From Sorangium aterium (GTDB taxonomy: Bacteria; Myxococcota_A; Polyangia; Polyangiales; Polyangiaceae): DNA of 64,000 nucleotides. How positions within the stretch are numbered: position 1 is the stretch's first letter; each line of letters begins with the position of its first letter. The notes under the pieces were generated by a model. That model was not told the DNA's origin. It made no database searches and was given only the letters and a program-made list of their open reading frames with translations. The stretch covers positions 372,001 through 436,000 of the forward strand of contig NZ_JAQNDK010000005.1 of the NCBI RefSeq assembly GCF_028368935.1, in the 5' to 3' direction. Positions 1,474-11,187 of the stretch are shown one piece after another. The translations under genes were made by a program, and so were the position numbers.

Positions 1474-1668
1474 CGAGCGGCTTCGCCCTCGCGCGGGCGG
1501 CGCGCCAGGCGCTTGCTCGTCCGCTCGCGGCGGCGGCGATCGGCCATCCCGCGCGCCGCGTCCACCCGCCGGCCACGCGCGCCATCGCGGTTGGTACCGT
1601 TCTGGCTAGCCGATCCCTGTCGTACGCACGCACAACCCCGAACGCGCTGCCCAGGGGAGGGACTCGCC

Positions 1669-2589
1669 ATGTCGCTCGAAGAGTACCGACGCCCGCGAAT
1701 GATCGTTCTTAGCCCGCGCTCGACCGCTTATGACGCCGTGAGGGCGATGATGGACAACCACGTCGGCGCGGTCCTGGTCCACGACGGCCAGCGCCTCGCC
1801 GGCATCGTGACCGACCGCGATATCGCGCTGGAGGTCGTGGCAGGCGACCTCGACGCGCGCAGCACGATGCTGCGCGACATCATGTCGGACGAGATCGCGA
1901 CGCTCGAGCTCGACGCGTCGATCGACGACGCCGTGCGCACCATGCGCGATCATGCGTGTCGGCGCGTGCCGGTGACCGAGCAAGGGCGGCCCGTCGGCCT
2001 GGTGACCCTCGACGATCTGCTCGCCGATGGGGTCATCGACGCGGAGGTCGCCGGCTCCGTCGTGAAGGCGCAGCTCGAGGTGGCCGCCCGGTTCAAGCCG
2101 GAAGGCGCGATGCACCCCGAGGCGACCGCGCGCCCGGAGCGCTCGCACGGCCGCGTGCGCGCCCTCACCCGGCGCAAGGCGCGCGCCGACAGCGCGTATG
2201 GCCGGCTGATCCACGCCGTCGAGCGCCACAGCGGCCTCCAGCAGCGCGACCGCGCGGAGCTCGCGCTGCAGATCGTCCTCGGCTGCCTCTGCCGCAGGGT
2301 GACGCCCCAGGAGGCGCGGCACCTCGTCGCGCAGCTGCCCTCGAAGCTCCACCCGTCGCTCGAGCCGTTCCTCGACGGGCCCGACAAGCGCATCACGACC
2401 GCGACCATCGAGGCCGACGTCGCGCGCGAGCTGCGCATGGACCGCGAGGCCGCCGGCTTCGTGCTGCAGGCGATCTGCGAGGCCGTCGCCGACAGCGTGT
2501 CCGCGGGGGAGATCGAGGGGTTCCGCGGTCAGCTCCCGCTCGACATGAAGGACCTGTTCCCGCCGACCCCGCTGCGCCGGGCCGTCTAG
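1669..2589 (+). CDS. CBS-pair protein with C-terminal DUF2267
   Basis: A 306-residue protein. I chose the ATG at 1669 because a GGGAGG ribosome-binding site sits just upstream; the frame is open further upstream but has no site. Residues about 8-60 and 70-125 form two CBS motifs (GAVLVHDGQRLAGIVTDRDI, then CRRVPVTEQGRPVGLVTLDD), the usual adenine-nucleotide-sensing pair. After a basic linker, residues about 180-295 match the helical DUF2267 pattern (ERHSGLQQRDRAE, LHPSLEPFL). CBS modules commonly regulate a partner by binding AMP, ATP or SAM; the partner here is unknown. The stop codon directly abuts the stop of the convergent epimerase gene, with no gap. Confidence 0.9.
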   Translation: MSLEEYRRPRMIVLSPRSTAYDAVRAMMDNHVGAVLVHDGQRLAGIVTDRDIALEVVAGDLDARSTMLRDIMSDEIATLELDASIDDAVRTMRDHACRRVPVTEQGRPVGLVTLDDLLADGVIDAEVAGSVVKAQLEVAARFKPEGAMHPEATARPERSHGRVRALTRRKARADSAYGRLIHAVERHSGLQQRDRAELALQIVLGCLCRRVTPQEARHLVAQLPSKLHPSLEPFLDGPDKRITTATIEADVARELRMDREAAGFVLQAICEAVADSVSAGEIEGFRGQLPLDMKDLFPPTPLRRAV

Positions 2590-3591
2590 CTACGCTTGCG
2601 GCCAGACCACGCCGCGGGCGCGCAGATCGGCGACGGTGTCCGCGAGGGTCTCGAGCGGGTCGCGCGGCGTCCAGCCGAGCTCTCGCCGGGCCTTCGTCGC
2701 GTCGAGGTACCAGAAGTGCTGGCCCATCTCGGCCGACACCGGATCGACCGGCAGATCGAACGGCAGCCGCTTCCGCGCCTGCTCGATGAGGTGCGCGCCC
2801 GCCTTCGCGAGCGCGATGCTCCGCGGCAGCCGCAGGGCGGGGGCCGGGACGCCGGAGATGCGCGCGAGGCGGCGGAAGAAGACCTCCAGGCTCATGTTGG
2901 CGGCGCCGAGCAGGTAGCGCTCGCCCGCGCGGCCCTTGTCCATCGCCAGCGCCATGCCCTGGGCCGCGTCGCGGGCGTCGACGAAGGAGAGGCCGCCCGC
3001 GGGGGTGAAGGGGAGCCGGCGCTCGAGGAAGCTCACGATGTCCCCGGTCGAGGCGCCGTGGACGTCGCCCGGGCCGAGCAGGATGCTCGGGTTGACGGCG
3101 ACGACCTCGAAGCCGGGCCCGCTGCGATCGAACGCCGCGCGCTCGGCGTACAGCTTCGAGCGGTAGTAGGGCCAGCCGGCGATGAGGTCGATCGGCGTCG
3201 CCGCCGTCTCGTCGCGGACGTCGCTCGGGTCCTTGCTGACCGCGACGACGCCGCTCGTGCTCGCGATCACCGCGCGCTTCACCCCCGCGTCGCGGCAGGC
3301 GTCGAGGGTGATCTTGGTCCCCTCGACGTGCGTCCGGTAGAGCGCCTCGGCGTCCTCACGGCGCCGCGAGACGCGCCCCGCGCAGTGGAAGACCCCGTCG
3401 CAGCCCTCGGCGGCGCCGCGCACCGACCCCGCGTCGAAGATGTCTCCGCGGCGAAGCTCCACGCCTTGCTCGGCGAGCGCGGGCGCCTCCGTCCGGCAGA
3501 GCGCCACCACGTCATGGCCACCCCCACGGAGCGCCGTGACGAGGTGCGATCCCAGGAAACCGGTCGCCCCGGTGACGAGATAGCGGCTCAT
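2590..3591 (-). CDS. NAD(P)-dependent epimerase/dehydratase (extended SDR, HpnA/dihydroflavonol-reductase-like)
   Basis: A 333-residue extended short-chain dehydrogenase. The N-terminus has the Rossmann motif TGATGFLGSHL, followed by the acidic RRGDIFD segment, the FHCAGRVSR strand, the catalytic STSGVVAVS serine region and a YYRSK Tyr-x-x-x-Lys motif near residue 143. The family reduces or epimerises sugar-, sterol- or terpenoid-like substrates using NAD(P)H. Its ATG overlaps the stop of the upstream 1527-residue acyl reductase/ligase gene (ATGA, 3588-3591), so the two are almost certainly translationally coupled, which suggests it acts on a product of that lipid enzyme. The substrate cannot be read from the sequence. 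Confidence 0.9.
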   Translation of the reverse strand: MSRYLVTGATGFLGSHLVTALRGGGHDVVALCRTEAPALAEQGVELRRGDIFDAGSVRGAAEGCDGVFHCAGRVSRRREDAEALYRTHVEGTKITLDACRDAGVKRAVIASTSGVVAVSKDPSDVRDETAATPIDLIAGWPYYRSKLYAERAAFDRSGPGFEVVAVNPSILLGPGDVHGASTGDIVSFLERRLPFTPAGGLSFVDARDAAQGMALAMDKGRAGERYLLGAANMSLEVFFRRLARISGVPAPALRLPRSIALAKAGAHLIEQARKRLPFDLPVDPVSAEMGQHFWYLDATKARRELGWTPRDPLETLADTVADLRARGVVWPQA

Positions 3592-6500
3592 GCGAGATCG
3601 AAAACCTTCTGGAAGGTCTGGAGGAGGGAGATGTCGTTCGATTTCACGAGGCCCGTCATGAACTCCATCGGGCTCGGTGTGTAGGCCTCGCGGACGATCT
3701 TGGTGAATATCTCGGGCGTCGTCTTGAGGACACAGTCCGCTTGCTGGCTTGGCTTACCGATCCGCGCCTCGCAGCTGGCCGGGTCGATCCGCAGCGTCCA
3801 CTTCGCCTCGTCCTCCGTGCCGAGCGTCACGTAGTAGGTGATCGGCTGGGTGACCCGCCCGGCGACGTATTTCGACTCGAGCTCGCGGAACAGGACCGTG
3901 AGCGGGTGCTCCTTGGTGGTGGTAGCGGCCTGATCGATGCTCTCGACCCGGCTCAGATCGAGGGCGCCGCCCTCTTTGAGCTTGATGACGGCGAGCTGCG
4001 TGAGCTCCGCGACCTTGCGGCAGGCCACCGCGTACTTCATCCCGGCGGTGAGCCGCCGGAGGTCGCCGATCGTGAGCGGCGGCCCGATGCGCGCGACGAG
4101 GTCGCGGCGGATCGGGACGGTGCGCCCCTTGGGGAGCGCCTCGAAGGTGCCGCCCAGGTAGAGGGGCAGGATGTCGACGTTGTGCGTGAGCGCGAGGTGC
4201 CCGATCGCCGGCTTGAACTCGAGGATGCCGCCGTCGGGGCTGCGCGTGCCCTCCGGGAAGAGGAGCACCGTCCGCCCGCGGTCCAGGATCTCGCCGGTCT
4301 GGCGCAGCGCCGTGCGGAGGCCGCCCTTGCGGTCGAAGGGCGCCAGGTTCGTGAGGTTCTCGAAGTAGGCGCGCCGCCAGCGGTTGCCCTCGAAGAAGTA
4401 GTCCTGGGCGGCCAGCGAGACGAGGCCGTCCCCGTAGCTGCCCAGCGCGAACTTCACGAGGCCCATGTCGAGGTGGCTCGCGTGGTTCGAGACGACGATC
4501 GTGTTGCGGTTGTGCGGGATGAACGCGCGCCCGTAGACCTTCGGGCGCATGACGTTCCCGTAGAAGCCGGACTGGACCTTGTTCATCCAGTGCTTGGCGA
4601 AGTCGGCCACCGGTCGAGGGATGTGGATCGGCTCCTCGCCCGGGCCCTGCGCCTTCGGCTCTGCGATCGCCGCGCCGGCGTCCTGCGCGACGGCCGCCGC
4701 GCCCGCGCCGGCCTCGGCGGCGAGGCGCGTGACGATCGCCTTCACCTCGGAGCGCTTCACCTGACCGGACGCGGTGCGCGGCAGGTCGGCGTCGTGGAGG
4801 TGGAGGGCCATGGGGTGGCACGGCTTGGGCAGCCCCTGGATCGCCGTCCGGAGCGCGTCGAGCGCGCGCTCGTGCTGCGTGGCCCGCGCGAGCGCCTCGT
4901 CGCCGTCGCCGTCCTTCGCGCCGGGCGCCGTGGGGACGGCGAGGCAGGCGACCTGCTCGCCGCCTCGGCCGTTGTCGATCCCGACGATGGCGAGCTCCTT
5001 GACGTGCTCGACCTTGCCGAGCATTCGCTCGATGTCGGCCGGGTACAGGTTCTCGCCCTTCGCCGCGCTGATCACCTCGCTCTGCCGGCCGACGAGGACG
5101 AGCCGCCCTTGCTTGTCGAGCTTGCCGAGATCGCCGGTGCGGAGCCACCCGTCCGCGTCGAGGACCGCCTGGGTCGCGCCCGGGTCGTCGGCGTAGCCCT
5201 TCATGACGTTGGCGCCGCGCGCGAGCACCTCGCCGACGCCGTTCGCGTCCGGGTTCGCGATCTTGATCTGCACCCCGGGGATCGGCTTGCCGACGTTCCC
5301 TGGGTTCGCCGCCGGCGAGGGCCTGGCGACGGTCAGGAGCGGCGCCGCCTCGGTCAGGCCGTAGCCCTCGGCGAGCGGCAGGCCGAGCCCCTTGAACACG
5401 GCGGCCGTGTCCCTGGGGAGCGCCGCGCCGCCCGAGATGAGGAAGCGGACGTTGCCGCCGAGCGCGTCGTGGACGCTGCCGAAGAAGAGGCGCCCCGCGT
5501 TCAGGCCCAAGCGCTTGCCGAGCATGCGGTTCAGCTCCATCGCCCAGCTGAACGCGGTGGCCGCGGCGGGCCCCTGCTCCTTCACCCTGGCGACGATCTG
5601 GCGCTCCAGCATCTGCCAGAGCGCCGGCACGCCGACCATCGCCGTGACGCGCGCCCTCTTCAGCCCGTCGCTCACCCGATCGGCCGAGACGTCGTCGAGG
5701 TAGATGATCCGCGCGCCCTGCGACAGCGGCAGGAGCAGGCCGCAGGTCACCTCGAAGGTCTGGTGCAGCGGCAGCACGCTGAGCACGCGGTCGCTCGCCT
5801 TGAGCGGGAACAGCGGCGCCAGCGAGGCCAGCAGGGCCGTGAAGTTGCCGTGCGTGAGCAGCACGCCCTTCGGCTCCCCGGTCGTGCCGCTCGTGTAGAC
5901 GACGCTCGCGACGTCCTGGCTGCCCACGCGCACGTCCGGGGGCGCGAGCCCGTCGCCGGACGCCGGCCCCAGGTCGGGCACCTGGCCCTCGGCGAACCCG
6001 CCCATGTCGAAGGCGACCAGGTTCGGCAGCGCCGCGCGCACGTCGGCGCCGAGCTTCTCCGCCACGCCGCTGTCCCAGAGGACGACCTTCGCCGTCGACG
6101 AGCGGAGGACGTCCGCGAACGCCTTCGCGTCGAGCGCGGGATCGATCGGGACGGCGACGGCGCCTGCGCGGAGGATACCGAAGTAGGCGACGGGCCACGC
6201 CGGCTGGTTCGCGCCGGAGAGCGCCACGCGATCGCCGCGGCGGACGCCGAGCGCGGCGAGGCGCGCGGCGGTCATGCAGGCGGCGTCCCGGAGCTCGCGG
6301 TAGCTCGTGCGCGAGAGCCCGTCCTGCTCGAACCGCTGCACCGACAGCGCGTGATCGAAGCGCTCGGCGACCTCGTCGAGCAGGTCGACCAGGCTGTCGT
6401 AGGGCCGGAGCGGCTTGATCTCCCGGCGGAGCATCTCCTCCATGAGCGGGAAGGCCCACTTCTCCAGGCCGGGGAGGTGCACGTTCCAGATGTAGTCGCG

Positions 6501-8171
6501 CCAGTCGATCTTCTCGGGCGCCCAGACGAAGCGCGCCCGCTCCTCGGGGGGCATGCGGGCCATCGCCGCGCGCGTGTTGGCGCACGAGTAGACCCAGTCG
6601 CCCTCCGCGACGAACGGCATGAAGACCTCGAGGAGCGTGGCCGTCTTCTGCTCGGTCCTGGCGGCGCTCTCCAGCGCGGCCGCCGCCGGCTTGAGGAGGG
6701 CCGCGGCGGGGCCGACGCTCGCCGTCTTGAGCAGGCCGCCCAGGCCGCGGAGGGCGCCCTCGATGGCGCGCGCGCCGTGCGCGCCGTACTGCTGCCGGGT
6801 CAGCCCGCGCGGCTCGAAGCGGGACGACACGACGTCGAAGAGCGAGGTCTTCTTCCCCTCGAACACCTGCCGCCGCTTGTAGAGCCCGGCGAGCTCCAGG
6901 TAGCGCGTCACGCGGCAGCCGTTCGTGTCGGTCGATCCGTACTGGTACACCGCGGGCGCGCGGCCCTCGATGAGCTCGCAGAGCGAGGCGATCATGCCGC
7001 TCGCGGTCATGTCGACCGGGATCAGGTCGAGCCGCACGTCGTGGTCGCCCGGGAACTGCACCTGCCCCTTCGAGGCGAGGTAGAGGTACGGCGCCGAGGT
7101 GTTGATCCCCTCGTTCCAGCCGCAGAACGGGAACTCGACCGCGGTCTCGACGACGGCGGGGCGGACGATGGTGAAGGGCAGCCCGGAGCTCGCGAGGACC
7201 TGCTCGCCGATGCTCTTCGTGTAGGTGTAGATGTTGGTCCACCCCCAGAAGAGCGCGCGCTCCTTGCCGGCCTCGATGAGCCGGTCCTTGATGAACTTGC
7301 GCTTCACCCTGGCGAGCTCGTTCTCGAGCGCGCTGCCCCGGCACGGCTCGCTGCGCGCGGCCAGGTTGGCCTTGGCCTCGTCGAGGAAGGCGCTCTGCCG
7401 GAAGGCGTCCTCGCACCGCTGGCGCGCCTGCTGCACGAGGTCGAGGCACTCGCTGATCTCGCGCTGCGGATCCCAGTGCGACCGATCGAGGGTCCGCTTC
7501 GGGCAGGCGGCGCCGAACCACGTCTCGCCCGCGGCGCGGGGGAAGGGGATCTCGGCCGGGTGGTTCTCCTCGATGAGCCCCGAGCGGTAGCCCGCGACGA
7601 AGCAGGTGCTCGTGTGCATCACCTTGGCCCCGAGGGTCCGCGCGAGCTCGACGAGGTTGCTGATGCCGAACGCGTTGACCTCGAGCGCCTCGTCGAGCGG
7701 CGGGTTGAAGTCGACGACGCCGGCCACGTTCACGACCGCGGCGATCGTGCCCGTGAGCTCCCCCACGCGGTCGCCCAGCCCGAGCAGCGGCAGGCCGACG
7801 TTGCCGTTCATGGGGGTGATCTTCTGCCGCAGGTACTCCTCGAAGGCGGGCCCGGGGTACTGCTCGCGGATCGGGTCGAAGACCGGCGAGGTCACGATCT
7901 GCGACCAGAAGCGCTCCTCCGGCGACTGGCTCTCCTTGGCCCGGACGAGCAGGTAGATGTGGGCGATCTCCGGGAACCTCGCGAGCAGCATGGCCAGCCA
8001 GACCTTGCCGAGGAAGCCGGTCCCTCCGACCACCACGAGCCGCTTGCCCGAGAGCACATGCGACGGCATCAGCGGCGGGGCCGCCGCGGTTTCCTCGCCC
8101 TTGGCCCCACCCGGCGACCCCGGCACTGCCTCTCCGGCGCCGGCCCCGTTCGTAACACCCATATGGCTCAT
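3588..8171 (-). CDS. Four-module lipid enzyme: fatty acyl reductase - acyl-CoA/ACP ligase - acyltransferase - SCP2-like
   Basis: A 1527-residue fusion. The start is placed at the ATG at 8171, preceded by GGAG five bases away; a TTG at 8195 is in frame but has no site. Module 1 (about 45-560) is a fatty acyl-CoA reductase: TGFLG Rossmann motif, YTYTK catalytic Tyr/Lys near 313, then a FAR C-terminal-like region. Module 2 (about 590-1140) is an ANL adenylate-forming ligase: YTSGTTGEPKG near 757, EGYGLTE, RTGDLG. Module 3 (about 1190-1400) is a PlsC-type acyltransferase: NHASHLD near 1227 and FPEGTRS near 1305. Module 4 (about 1430-1527) resembles an SCP2 lipid-carrier domain. No acyl carrier domain is evident. 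Activation, reduction to aldehyde or alcohol, and esterification in one chain would suit ether-lipid or wax-type products. It heads a coupled pair with the epimerase gene. Confidence 0.93.
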   Translation of the reverse strand: MSHMGVTNGAGAGEAVPGSPGGAKGEETAAAPPLMPSHVLSGKRLVVVGGTGFLGKVWLAMLLARFPEIAHIYLLVRAKESQSPEERFWSQIVTSPVFDPIREQYPGPAFEEYLRQKITPMNGNVGLPLLGLGDRVGELTGTIAAVVNVAGVVDFNPPLDEALEVNAFGISNLVELARTLGAKVMHTSTCFVAGYRSGLIEENHPAEIPFPRAAGETWFGAACPKRTLDRSHWDPQREISECLDLVQQARQRCEDAFRQSAFLDEAKANLAARSEPCRGSALENELARVKRKFIKDRLIEAGKERALFWGWTNIYTYTKSIGEQVLASSGLPFTIVRPAVVETAVEFPFCGWNEGINTSAPYLYLASKGQVQFPGDHDVRLDLIPVDMTASGMIASLCELIEGRAPAVYQYGSTDTNGCRVTRYLELAGLYKRRQVFEGKKTSLFDVVSSRFEPRGLTRQQYGAHGARAIEGALRGLGGLLKTASVGPAAALLKPAAAALESAARTEQKTATLLEVFMPFVAEGDWVYSCANTRAAMARMPPEERARFVWAPEKIDWRDYIWNVHLPGLEKWAFPLMEEMLRREIKPLRPYDSLVDLLDEVAERFDHALSVQRFEQDGLSRTSYRELRDAACMTAARLAALGVRRGDRVALSGANQPAWPVAYFGILRAGAVAVPIDPALDAKAFADVLRSSTAKVVLWDSGVAEKLGADVRAALPNLVAFDMGGFAEGQVPDLGPASGDGLAPPDVRVGSQDVASVVYTSGTTGEPKGVLLTHGNFTALLASLAPLFPLKASDRVLSVLPLHQTFEVTCGLLLPLSQGARIIYLDDVSADRVSDGLKRARVTAMVGVPALWQMLERQIVARVKEQGPAAATAFSWAMELNRMLGKRLGLNAGRLFFGSVHDALGGNVRFLISGGAALPRDTAAVFKGLGLPLAEGYGLTEAAPLLTVARPSPAANPGNVGKPIPGVQIKIANPDANGVGEVLARGANVMKGYADDPGATQAVLDADGWLRTGDLGKLDKQGRLVLVGRQSEVISAAKGENLYPADIERMLGKVEHVKELAIVGIDNGRGGEQVACLAVPTAPGAKDGDGDEALARATQHERALDALRTAIQGLPKPCHPMALHLHDADLPRTASGQVKRSEVKAIVTRLAAEAGAGAAAVAQDAGAAIAEPKAQGPGEEPIHIPRPVADFAKHWMNKVQSGFYGNVMRPKVYGRAFIPHNRNTIVVSNHASHLDMGLVKFALGSYGDGLVSLAAQDYFFEGNRWRRAYFENLTNLAPFDRKGGLRTALRQTGEILDRGRTVLLFPEGTRSPDGGILEFKPAIGHLALTHNVDILPLYLGGTFEALPKGRTVPIRRDLVARIGPPLTIGDLRRLTAGMKYAVACRKVAELTQLAVIKLKEGGALDLSRVESIDQAATTTKEHPLTVLFRELESKYVAGRVTQPITYYVTLGTEDEAKWTLRIDPASCEARIGKPSQQADCVLKTTPEIFTKIVREAYTPSPMEFMTGLVKSNDISLLQTFQKVFDLA

Positions 8172-8465: not shown

Positions 8466-9416
8466 ATGATCTTCGGCGCGCACGAGTCCGTGGCCGGCGG
8501 CCTTCACCGCGCGATCGCGCTGGCGGGGGAGGACCGCTGCGAGGCGGTGCAGATCTTCACCAAGGTCTCGGGCCAGTGGCGGGAGCCGGCGCTGAGCGCG
8601 GAGCAGATCGCCGCGTTTCGCGCCGCGCGCGCGGCCTGGGCCGGCGCGGGCCGGACGCTCGCCCACGCGAGCTACCTCATCAACCTGTGCGCCGACGACG
8701 CCGCGATCCTCGAGCGCTCGCGGGAGGCGCTGTTCCAGGAGCTCGCGCGGTGCGACGCGCTCGGGATCGACTTCGTGGTGTTCCATCCGGGCGCGCCGCG
8801 CAGCCTCGGCGAGGAGGTCGGCCTCGATCGCATCGGCGAGAGCCTGTCGATCGTGCTCTCTCGCGCGGAGGGCCTCCGCGCGCAGCTGTGCATCGAGAAC
8901 ACGGCCGGGCAGGGGTCGACCCTCGGCGATCGCGTCGATCAGATCGCCGCGATGATCGATCGCGCCGGGCCGGAGGGGTCGCGGCTCGGGGTCTGCGTCG
9001 ACACGCAGCACGCCTTCGCGGCGGGGCACGACCTCCGGAGCGAGGCCGGCTACGAGCGGTTCTGGAGCGACTTCGGCCGGCTGCTCGGGCTGGAGCGGCT
9101 GAGGTGCATGCACATGAACGACTCGAAGGCGGGGCTCGGCCAGCGGCTCGATCGGCACGAGCGCATCGGCGACGGGGAGATGGGGCTCGCGCCGTTCTGG
9201 CGCCTCGCGAACGACGCGCGGCTCGCGCGCGTGCCGGCGGTGATCGAGCTGCCGCCGCTCTCGAAGGAGCGGCGCGGCTACATGGAGGAGATCGCGCGGC
9301 TGCGCGCCCTCGAGGGCGCGGCGGAGCCGGTCACCCTACCCGGTGCGGCACCCGGACCCCCTTCTCGTCCGCCACGCGGATCGCCGTCTCGTAGCCCGCG
9401 TCGGCGTGCCGGATGA
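8466..9416 (+). CDS. nfo: Deoxyribonuclease IV / AP endonuclease (Nfo family)
   Basis: A 316-residue TIM-barrel enzyme for base-excision repair, cleaving DNA 5' of abasic sites. The ATG at 8466 starts [12 protein letters not shown], the usual first strand. All nine expected metal ligands can be placed: His in AHASY, His in FHPG, Glu in CIENTAGQG, Asp and His in VDTQHAF, His in CMHMNDSK, Asp and His in DRHERIGDG, and Glu in VIELPP. Known members are about 280 residues; this one carries roughly 30 extra C-terminal residues rich in Pro, Ser and Arg. That tail is encoded where the gene runs 86 bases into the 3' end of the convergent urocanase gene. Confidence 0.93.
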
Positions 9417-11004
9417 TCCCCATCCCCGGATCGATGGTGAGCACCCGCTCGAGCCTCTGCCGCGCGGCCTCGGTGCCGTCGGCGACGATCACCATCCCGG
9501 CGTGCAGCGAGTTGCCGATCCCGACGCCGCCGCCGTGGTGGAAGCTCACCCACGACGCGCCGCCCGCCGTGTTCGCGAGCGCGTTGAGGATCGCCCAGTC
9601 GGCGATCGCGTCCGAGCCGTCCTTCATCGCCTCCGTCTCCCGGAACGGCGACGCGACCGATCCGCAGTCGAGGTGGTCGCGCCCGATCACGATCGGCGCC
9701 TTCACCCGGCCGGCGCGGACGAGCTCGTTGAAGGCGAGCCCGACCTTCGCGCGATCGCCGTAGCCGAGCCAGCAGATCCGCGACGGGAGCCCCTGGAACG
9801 CGATCTTCCGCTGTGCGAGCTCGATCCAGCGGCGGAGATCGGCGTCGCCCGGGACCGCCTCGAGCACCGCGCGGTCGGTGGCGAGGATGTCCTCGGGATC
9901 GCCCGAGAGCGCGACCCACCGGAACGGGCCCTTGCCCTGGCAGAACAGCTCGCGCACGTACGCCGGAACGAAGCCGGGGATCGCGAACGCGTCCTCCTCG
10001 CCCGCCTCCGTCGCGCAGGTGCGGATGTTGTTGCCGTAGTCGAAGACCTCGGCCCCGCGCCGCTGCATCGCGAGCATCGCCTCGACCTCCCTGCGCATCC
10101 CCGCCTTCGCGCGCGCGACGTACTCCCCGGGGTCGCGCGCGCGGAGCTCCGCCGCCTGCTCGAGCGTGAGCCCCGGCGGGACGTAGCCGACGAGCGGATC
10201 GTGCGCCGCGGTCTGCTCGGTGACGAGGTCGGGCGTGACGCCGCGGCGCACGAGCTCCGGGTAGACGTCGGCGGCGTTGCCGCAGAGGGCGATCGAGCGT
10301 GGCGCCCCGCGCTGGACGCTCTCGAGGACGGCGTCGAGGGCGCGGTCGAGATCGTCGATGCGCTCGTCGACGTAGCCGGTGCGGAGCCGCTTCTCGATGC
10401 GCGCCGGGTCGATCTCGACGCCGAGGCAGGCCATGCCCGCCATCGTCGCGGCGAGCGGCTGCGCGCCGCCCATGCCGCCGAGCCCCGCGGTGAGCACCCA
10501 GCGCCCGCCGCCCGGGGCGCGCGCCGCGTGCGCCTTCCGCGCGGCGACGAACGTCTCGTAGGTGCCCTGCACGATGCCCTGCGAGCCGATGTAGATCCAC
10601 GAGCCCGCGGTCATCTGCCCGTACATGGTCAGGCCGAGCGCCTCGAGCCGGCGGAACTCGTCCCACGTCGCCCACCGGCCCACGAGGTTCGAGTTCGCGA
10701 GGAGCACGCGGGGCGCGTCCGGGTGCGTGCGGAAGCGGCCCACCGCCTTGCCCGACTGCACGAGGAGCGTCTCGTCGTCCGCGAGCTCCCGGAGTTCGCG
10801 GACGATCACGTCGAACGCCTCCCACGAGCGCGCCGCCTTCCCGGTGCCGCCGTACACCACGAGATCGTCGGGGCGCTCTGCGACCTCCGGATCGAGGTTG
10901 TTGTGGAGCATCCGGAGCGCGGCCTCCTGGATCCACCCCTTGCAGCTCCGCTCGCTCCCGCGCGGCGCGCGCACCACCCGGGCCCCCTGCTCTCCGGTCG
11001 TCAT
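9331..11004 (-). CDS. hutU: Urocanate hydratase
   Basis: A 557-residue urocanase, matching the family's usual length, converting urocanate to imidazolone propionate in histidine degradation, in the cytosol with tightly bound NAD. Diagnostic segments are [15 protein letters not shown] (NAD site), [20 protein letters not shown] and the cysteine-containing [15 protein letters not shown]. The start is the ATG at 11004 (MTTGEQ), with GGTGGAG about 11 bases upstream; a 19-residue extension is possible. No other hut gene lies nearby, so the pathway is dispersed. Its 3' end overlaps the convergent nfo gene. Confidence 0.97.
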
Positions 11005-11187
11005 GCTGTCGTGTACTCCACCCGGTCCGGATCGACCAGAAGGCGCGGCGTCCGCCGCCACGCGTGGCGACGGGCACGCCGGCGCGCGACGCGAGCCTGC
11101 TCGGTCCTCTCCGGAGCAGCCGGCTTCGTCCGAACCGGAGTATGCTCGCTCGGGGCGCGCGCAGCGCCCGTGTGTCCGGGAGAATCC

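Follow-up and report, generated by a model that had tools for sequence, protein, structure and literature searches.

The 64,000-nucleotide stretch of Sorangium aterium DNA analysed here (the window), part of a 13.47-Mb genome, encodes on its minus strand a 1527-residue multifunctional lipid enzyme (3588..8171) and, directly behind it, a short-chain dehydrogenase/reductase (SDR; 2590..3591). Sequence comparison indicates that the two genes are most likely the Sorangium version of the ElbD-ElbE pair, and not the different route that the original prediction had put forward as a possibility. We consider it likely that in Sorangium the acyl carrier protein (ACP) of ElbD has been deleted, that the ligase has lost its lysine, that this loading module is decaying while the rest is maintained by selection, and that the pair serves an ether-lipid role. 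The probabilities we attach to the rival explanations weighed below overlap with one another and with this one. The elbD-elbE pair itself is already described; in the parts of the open-licence literature available to us, we found no earlier account of the ACP loss, the ligase decay, the co-occurrence of ElbD with ElbC or its avoidance of the alkyl-dihydroxyacetone phosphate (alkyl-DHAP) synthase AGPS.

The elbD-like gene runs from the ATG at 8171 to a stop codon at 3588-3590, and the start codon of the SDR gene (2590-3591, an ElbE-like extended SDR of 333 residues) lies inside the ATGA that it shares with this stop (3588..3591), which bears out the single long protein and the coupled next gene first proposed from the sequence. 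A Pfam scan of full-length window proteins at E<=0.001, supplemented by motif inspection, resolved the order of domains, all on the minus strand. The protein opens with a fatty acyl reductase (FAR) NAD-binding domain (NAD_binding_4, PF07993; residues 48-391, 6999..8030) with GGTGFLG at residue 49 and YTYTK at residue 315, and a weak FAR_C match follows (PF03015; residues 505-572, 6456..6659; 32.9 bits, below the cut-off of 35.4). Next come the AMP-binding N-subdomain of an acyl ligase (PF00501; residues 602-993, 5193..6368), in which the P-loop is present, and the ligase C-subdomain (residues 1011-1150, 4722..5141). A linker (residues 1151-1194, 4590..4721) without ACP, at the place that in most other ElbDs is taken up by a phosphopantetheine ACP, leads to a glycerolipid-type (PlsC-type) acyltransferase (AT; PF01553; residues 1210-1339, 4155..4544) with NHASHLD at residue 1229 and FPEGTRS at residue 1305, and the chain ends in an SCP2-like lipid-carrier tail recognized by profile and fold (about residues 1420-1527, 3591..3914). 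Solved structures related by sequence include fatty-acyl-CoA synthetases and the fatty acyl-CoA reductase 7eoz (E 1.1e-44).

The SCP2 tail was not reported by the Pfam scan of the full-length protein at E<=0.001 and was matched when the tail was scanned alone (residues ~1448-1525, E 8.9e-5, 23.2 bits, cut-off 21.3). Similar scans of relatives' tails matched SCP2 in L013 and L059 and not in L055, which still aligns there. In a predicted structure of residues 1180-1527 (mean pLDDT 68.7), we observed similarity both to Thermotoga PlsC (Z 14.8 over 187 residues, root-mean-square deviation (rmsd) 3.6) and to 1ikt, the human MFE-2 SCP2 domain (Z 12.2 over 105 residues, rmsd 2.6). Over model residues 221-348, matches at Z of about 12-14 across ~105 residues comprise alkylsulfatase tails as well as human SCP2 domains. 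Pfam, the tail scan and the fold thus uphold the earlier picture of a lipid enzyme that combines a reductase, a ligase, an acyltransferase and an SCP2-like tail, has no carrier domain and is coupled to an SDR. One ElbD clade (L025, L063, L064, L067 and L070, including an Acidobacteria metagenome-assembled genome (MAG)) is without the SCP2 tail, which makes SCP2 an accessory of the enzyme. A polyketide-synthase-like enzyme was rejected, as no polyketide synthase domain was found at E<=0.001, and at the same threshold the gene pair contains no FAD domain of the AGPS type.

Apart from the ACP, the published description of ElbD agrees with this architecture. According to the portion of PMC9131029 available to us, to which all citations of that paper below refer, Myxococcus xanthus ElbD consists of FAR1-like, ACS, ACP and AGPAT-like acyltransferase domains, a composition at odds with the polyketide-synthase-like character that the original prediction had ascribed to it. 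Its gene lies between elbC ('unknown function') and elbE, which is of the epimerase family, and elbB is HAD-like (PMC9131029). In a survey of 282 Myxococcota genomes, an even draw from the phylum that includes many incomplete assemblies, an ElbD-like protein at E<=1e-100 was present in 83. The gene is found in all six genomes of the Sorangium genus group, and identity between the window copy and its counterparts in five named Sorangium genomes or MAGs is 88-93% in the best segment. Sorangium orthologues align over the full length, with the sole exception of a draft copy (L011:3892-8592, Sorangium So0008-312) whose match ends at residue 1472 and stops 68 nt before the SDR, perhaps because of a frameshift in the assembly. 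Orthologues of Polyangium, Minicystis, Byssovorax and other Myxococcota align around a longer linker. An SDR follows ElbD at a distance of 429 nt or less in 35/36 loci with downstream DNA, the window copy included (two of the 38 loci have none); the single locus without detectable ElbE-like SDR, L067, belongs to G263, a genome that also carries both ElbD and AGPS. In ACP-bearing relatives such as L059 and L069 the gene order is HAD, Lar_N protein, ElbD and SDR, which fits elbB-C-D-E. A separate and fully active four-module route that needs no carrier, activates free fatty acid and yields ether lipids, fatty alcohols or wax esters would account for the domain order and the absence of ACP, both of which are real. 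We regard it as improbable, since the protein is orthologous over its full length to ACP-bearing ElbDs that are followed by ElbE, the A10 lysine of the ligase is missing and the ligase C-subdomain evolves almost neutrally, as detailed below.

From the sequences compared, a derived loss best explains why the ACP is missing. The window linker gave no significant Pfam match (only DUF3349 at E 0.19, none at 0.01). We read 66 ligase-acyltransferase linkers and scanned 65, L019 being a copy of L026, and PP-binding was matched in 58 of these 65. Reading the linkers identified the seven without ACP as the six Sorangium copies, including that of the window, and L072; three others (L031, L055 and L056) fail a strict ACP motif pattern and retain the serine. 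The linker distance is 65-71 in Sorangium and mostly 131-171 elsewhere. On a FastTree phylogeny of 64 rows built from the FAR and AT columns, the ACP trait has to change twice, with Sorangium nested among the ACP-bearing Polyangium, Minicystis, Byssovorax and L026. Of the outcome that would have counted against the original prediction, an ElbD orthologue carrying an ACP, domain analysis thus bears out one half: the protein is such an orthologue, and it does not have the ACP. A relocated gene could in principle supply the ACP in trans, and carrier-like matches do occur elsewhere in some of these genomes: the Byssovorax ElbD ACP, used as query, matched five places in three of the six Sorangium genomes. 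These matches reach only 35-41% identity (E 6.5e-6 or weaker), none was obtained at E<=0.001 in the other three genomes, and the ligase meant to load such a carrier is decaying, so that supply in trans seems very improbable. A relocated copy of the ElbD ACP gene was rejected as a candidate, no close copy having been found in the six genomes.

The ligase of Sorangium has lost two lysines that are nearly universal in other ElbDs. At the A10 motif, glutamine occupies the position in 6/6 Sorangium rows (Q1137 in the window, codon checked, 4761..4763) and lysine in 59/59 others; in the A8 region, lysine is present in 58/59 non-Sorangium rows and replaced by S, Q or H in Sorangium (S1031 in the window, 5079..5081). 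The A10 lysine has been described as the residue most important for catalysis of the adenylation step (PMC8388817, in the portion available to us). The FAR Tyr/Lys and the AT His/Asp are intact in 65/65 ElbD rows. Estimates of the ratio of nonsynonymous to synonymous substitution rates (dN/dS), simple NG86 counts with confidence limits taken over codons and not over strains, give for Sorangium 0.88 (95% confidence interval 0.56-1.42) in the ligase C-subdomain and 0.45 (0.35-0.60) in the N-subdomain, and 0.23, 0.22 and 0.14 in FAR, AT and SCP2, respectively. Corresponding values for the C- and N-subdomains are 0.11 and 0.16 in the ACP-bearing Polyangium, and 0.11-0.16 and 0.14-0.19 in three further ACP-bearing groups. 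The ligase C-subdomain exceeds both FAR and AT in 15/15 Sorangium pairs, and three of its 20 near-invariant sites are changed (Fisher p 0.014; this and the Fisher tests below ignore kinship). Selection on the ligase has thus been relaxed, and this ligase appears to be a decaying loading module within a protein whose reductase, acyltransferase and SCP2 domains are still under selection. Given the loss of the A10 lysine and the near-neutral C-subdomain, the 'four complete modules' with active-site motifs of the original prediction become three, namely the reductase, the acyltransferase and the SCP2-like tail, plus a decaying loading module, and the activation of a fatty acid by the protein's own chain, initially taken as its first step, looks disabled.

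A second lineage, represented by L072:4862-9544 in genome G074, lost the ACP separately from Sorangium and is altered in the ligase as well, in a different manner: its A10 lysine is kept and its P-loop motif is altered. Near-invariant sites are changed at 12/68 positions in its ligase N-subdomain and 4/20 in the C-subdomain, and at 1/56 in FAR, 0/30 in AT and 0/15 in SCP2, for totals of 16/88 in the ligase versus 1/101 in FAR, AT and SCP2 together (Fisher p 3.5e-5). With both Sorangium and L072 altered in ligase and ACP, two lineages seem to have dismantled these parts and kept the remainder. Nature would thus seemingly have run the same domain deletion twice, with ACP and ligase function going together, which leads us to argue that ligase and ACP form one loading unit; the retained reductase, acyltransferase and SCP2 domains would define a testable core of the multifunctional enzyme.

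We infer the chemistry of this core, including its use of acyl-CoA, its lipid product and its ether-lipid function. The remaining domains most likely use acyl-CoA made elsewhere in the cell, which the FAR domain would reduce to a fatty alcohol or aldehyde. The acyltransferase would esterify a glycerol-phosphate or DHAP-type acceptor, the SCP2 tail may hold and shield the lipid, and ElbE would carry out a ketone/alcohol step by reducing or oxidizing an intermediate. ElbB (HAD phosphatase-like) and ElbC (LarA-like) would complete the set, acting in trans. An alkyl ether lipid is the most likely product, given that in M. xanthus ether lipids were strongly reduced by insertion in elbD and decreased by elbE inactivation (PMC9131029).

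Several observations weigh against this interpretation. The link to M. xanthus ElbD rests on its published architecture and gene order. When M. xanthus ElbD was assayed in vitro, ACS and ACP were active and FAR and acyltransferase activity went undetected (PMC9131029), so that the domains kept in Sorangium are those without detected activity. Titles and abstract openings in the open-licence literature held nothing to the point on the ether lipids of Sorangium. Single-pair dN/dS values scatter (0.42-1.51 for the ligase C-subdomain, 0.12-0.86 for SCP2 residues 1420-1470), and changed near-invariant sites in Sorangium number 4/88 in the ligase as a whole versus 1/101 in the other domains (Fisher p 0.19). 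The ligase also retains a full open frame, the P-loop, A5 and A7 and still scores 273 bits against PF00501, so that residual or changed activity is possible. In an alternative compatible with the same ElbD descent, the ligase would still work as an acyl-CoA ligase or in the thioester half-reaction only, the K-to-Q change would be tolerated and the raised dN/dS would signal a change of substrate. This is consistent with those retained motifs, with the A8 Arg and with the N-subdomain value of 0.45, still below 1; we nevertheless judge it unlikely, though worth keeping in mind, in view of the catalytic role ascribed to the A10 lysine (PMC8388817) and the C-subdomain value of 0.88.

The partner genes of ElbD are present in the same genome. 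Orthologues of elbB and elbC adjoin each other at G000:C5:34555-36864 (L093:7538-9871), ~339 kb from elbDE, with 48% and 54% identity to the respective queries; in Sorangium and Polyangium, the loci L009-L012, L021 and L015-L018 show no ElbC in the flanks available (4-8 kb upstream). We infer that ElbC is the Lar_N protein from gene order in the ACP-bearing relatives, since its position there matches elbB-C-D-E. Of the 282 genomes, ElbD is present in 83, ElbC (E<=1e-60) in 82 and both in 81; ElbC occurs in 1/199 genomes without ElbD (G062), and ElbD without ElbC only in G188 and G264. PF01969, which we take to be LarC of nickel-pincer cofactor synthesis, was found in 78/82 ElbC genomes versus 129/200 others.

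ElbC matches the Lar_N profile at E 9.6e-39. Hallmarks of the LarA superfamily are a cofactor-anchoring Lys in a GG.K motif and two catalytic His. In ElbC, the GG.K Lys is found in 35/35 rows, and an HH motif is seen throughout the 35 rows displayed; the 20 residues before this Lys hold no conserved His except its neighbour (28/35), and an Asn (N187) 11 residues before it is invariant (35/35). For two single-histidine proteins, the authors of PMC12611868, in the portion available to us, propose on the basis of gene context a role in carbohydrate metabolism; the sugar phosphate that they modelled is, by their own account, highly speculative.

ElbD occurs almost without exception together with this LarA-type protein and avoids AGPS, which leads us to name ElbC as a concrete candidate for a missing step of a route whose steps to alkyl ether lipid are called unknown (PMC9131029). 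As a tentative and rather doubtful proposal, ElbC would be the missing ether-forming enzyme of an AGPS-independent aerobic route: the LarA-type nickel-pincer protein would take a hydride from C2 of the acyl-glycerol-phosphate made by the ElbD acyltransferase, the transient ketone would let ElbD's fatty alcohol displace the C1 acyl, and the hydride would then be returned. The logic would be that of AGPS, with a hidden redox step in place of FAD and DHAP. If so, Sorangium would show that ElbD serves the ElbC route without a loading module of its own. Among the open-licence papers listed, none of those on LarA mentioned ether lipids, and a search for ElbC together with ElbD gave one that names ElbC.

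AGPS (E<=1e-60), the enzyme known to form the ether bond, is present in 44/282 genomes, of which only two, G000 (the source genome) and G263, also carry ElbD, where about 13 would be expected (p 2e-5, kinship ignored); among the 31 strong AGPS matches, two are shared with ElbD versus 9.1 expected (p 0.0016). Family f19, to which L072 belongs, contributes 15 other members to the genomes with AGPS. The stand-alone AGPS gene of the source strain lies at G000:C2:1274499-1276535 (L099:4500-6536) and matches peroxisomal alkyl-DHAP synthase (4bby) at E 5.8e-171, and the strain may therefore have both ether-lipid routes. Conceivably, the ElbD reductase and acyltransferase feed this free-standing AGPS, in the manner of mammalian FAR1, GNPAT and AGPS. 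The orthologue in the genome is in favour of such a scheme; nonetheless, AGPS was not found at E<=1e-60 in the five other Sorangium genomes, and its presence in one of six against ACP loss in 6/6 renders the scheme improbable. On the same counts, gain of AGPS was rejected as the cause of the ACP loss.

Compared with the elb operon of M. xanthus (MIBiG BGC0000871), the Sorangium pair shares FAR, ACS and acyltransferase in one chain, an epimerase-family SDR next to it, and a genome that also encodes ElbB- and ElbC-type proteins; it differs by the deleted ACP, the lost A10 and A8-region lysines and the unlinking of elbBC from elbDE. MXAN_1675, whose two domains are FAR1-like and GNPAT-like and whose operon includes AGPS (PMC9131029), has the same FAR and acyltransferase content once the Sorangium loading module is discounted, whereas the Sorangium protein has in addition its SCP2 tail and the decaying ligase and is not encoded next to AGPS. 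The mammalian ether-lipid set consists of FAR1, GNPAT and AGPS (PMC9131029). With this set and SCP2-tailed MFE-2, Sorangium ElbD shares the kinds of domain, its tail matching the MFE-2 SCP2 fold, but the domains are fused in one bacterial chain. The ligase part also matches NF006386 (Acyl-[ACP]-phospholipid O-acyltransferase fusions) at E 3.8e-56 with 190.5 bits, far below the cut-off of 1221. These fusions presumably combine ligase and acyltransferase without FAR or SCP2.

A promoter and terminator scan upstream of the elbD-like gene found none. In a plasmid collection, 2638 records matched the window protein, all below 60% identity and none with 80% query coverage, and the best of these matches correspond to ligase or ligase-acyltransferase stretches. 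FAR-type PF07993 occurs at 11 places in the source genome, the elbD-like gene included, and the paralogues among them were weighed as counterparts of MXAN_1675. A gene for a CBS and DUF2267 protein (window 1513-2589) abuts the SDR gene tail to tail, with zero gap, and the urocanate hydratase gene hutU (window 9331-11061) is located upstream of the elbD-like gene.

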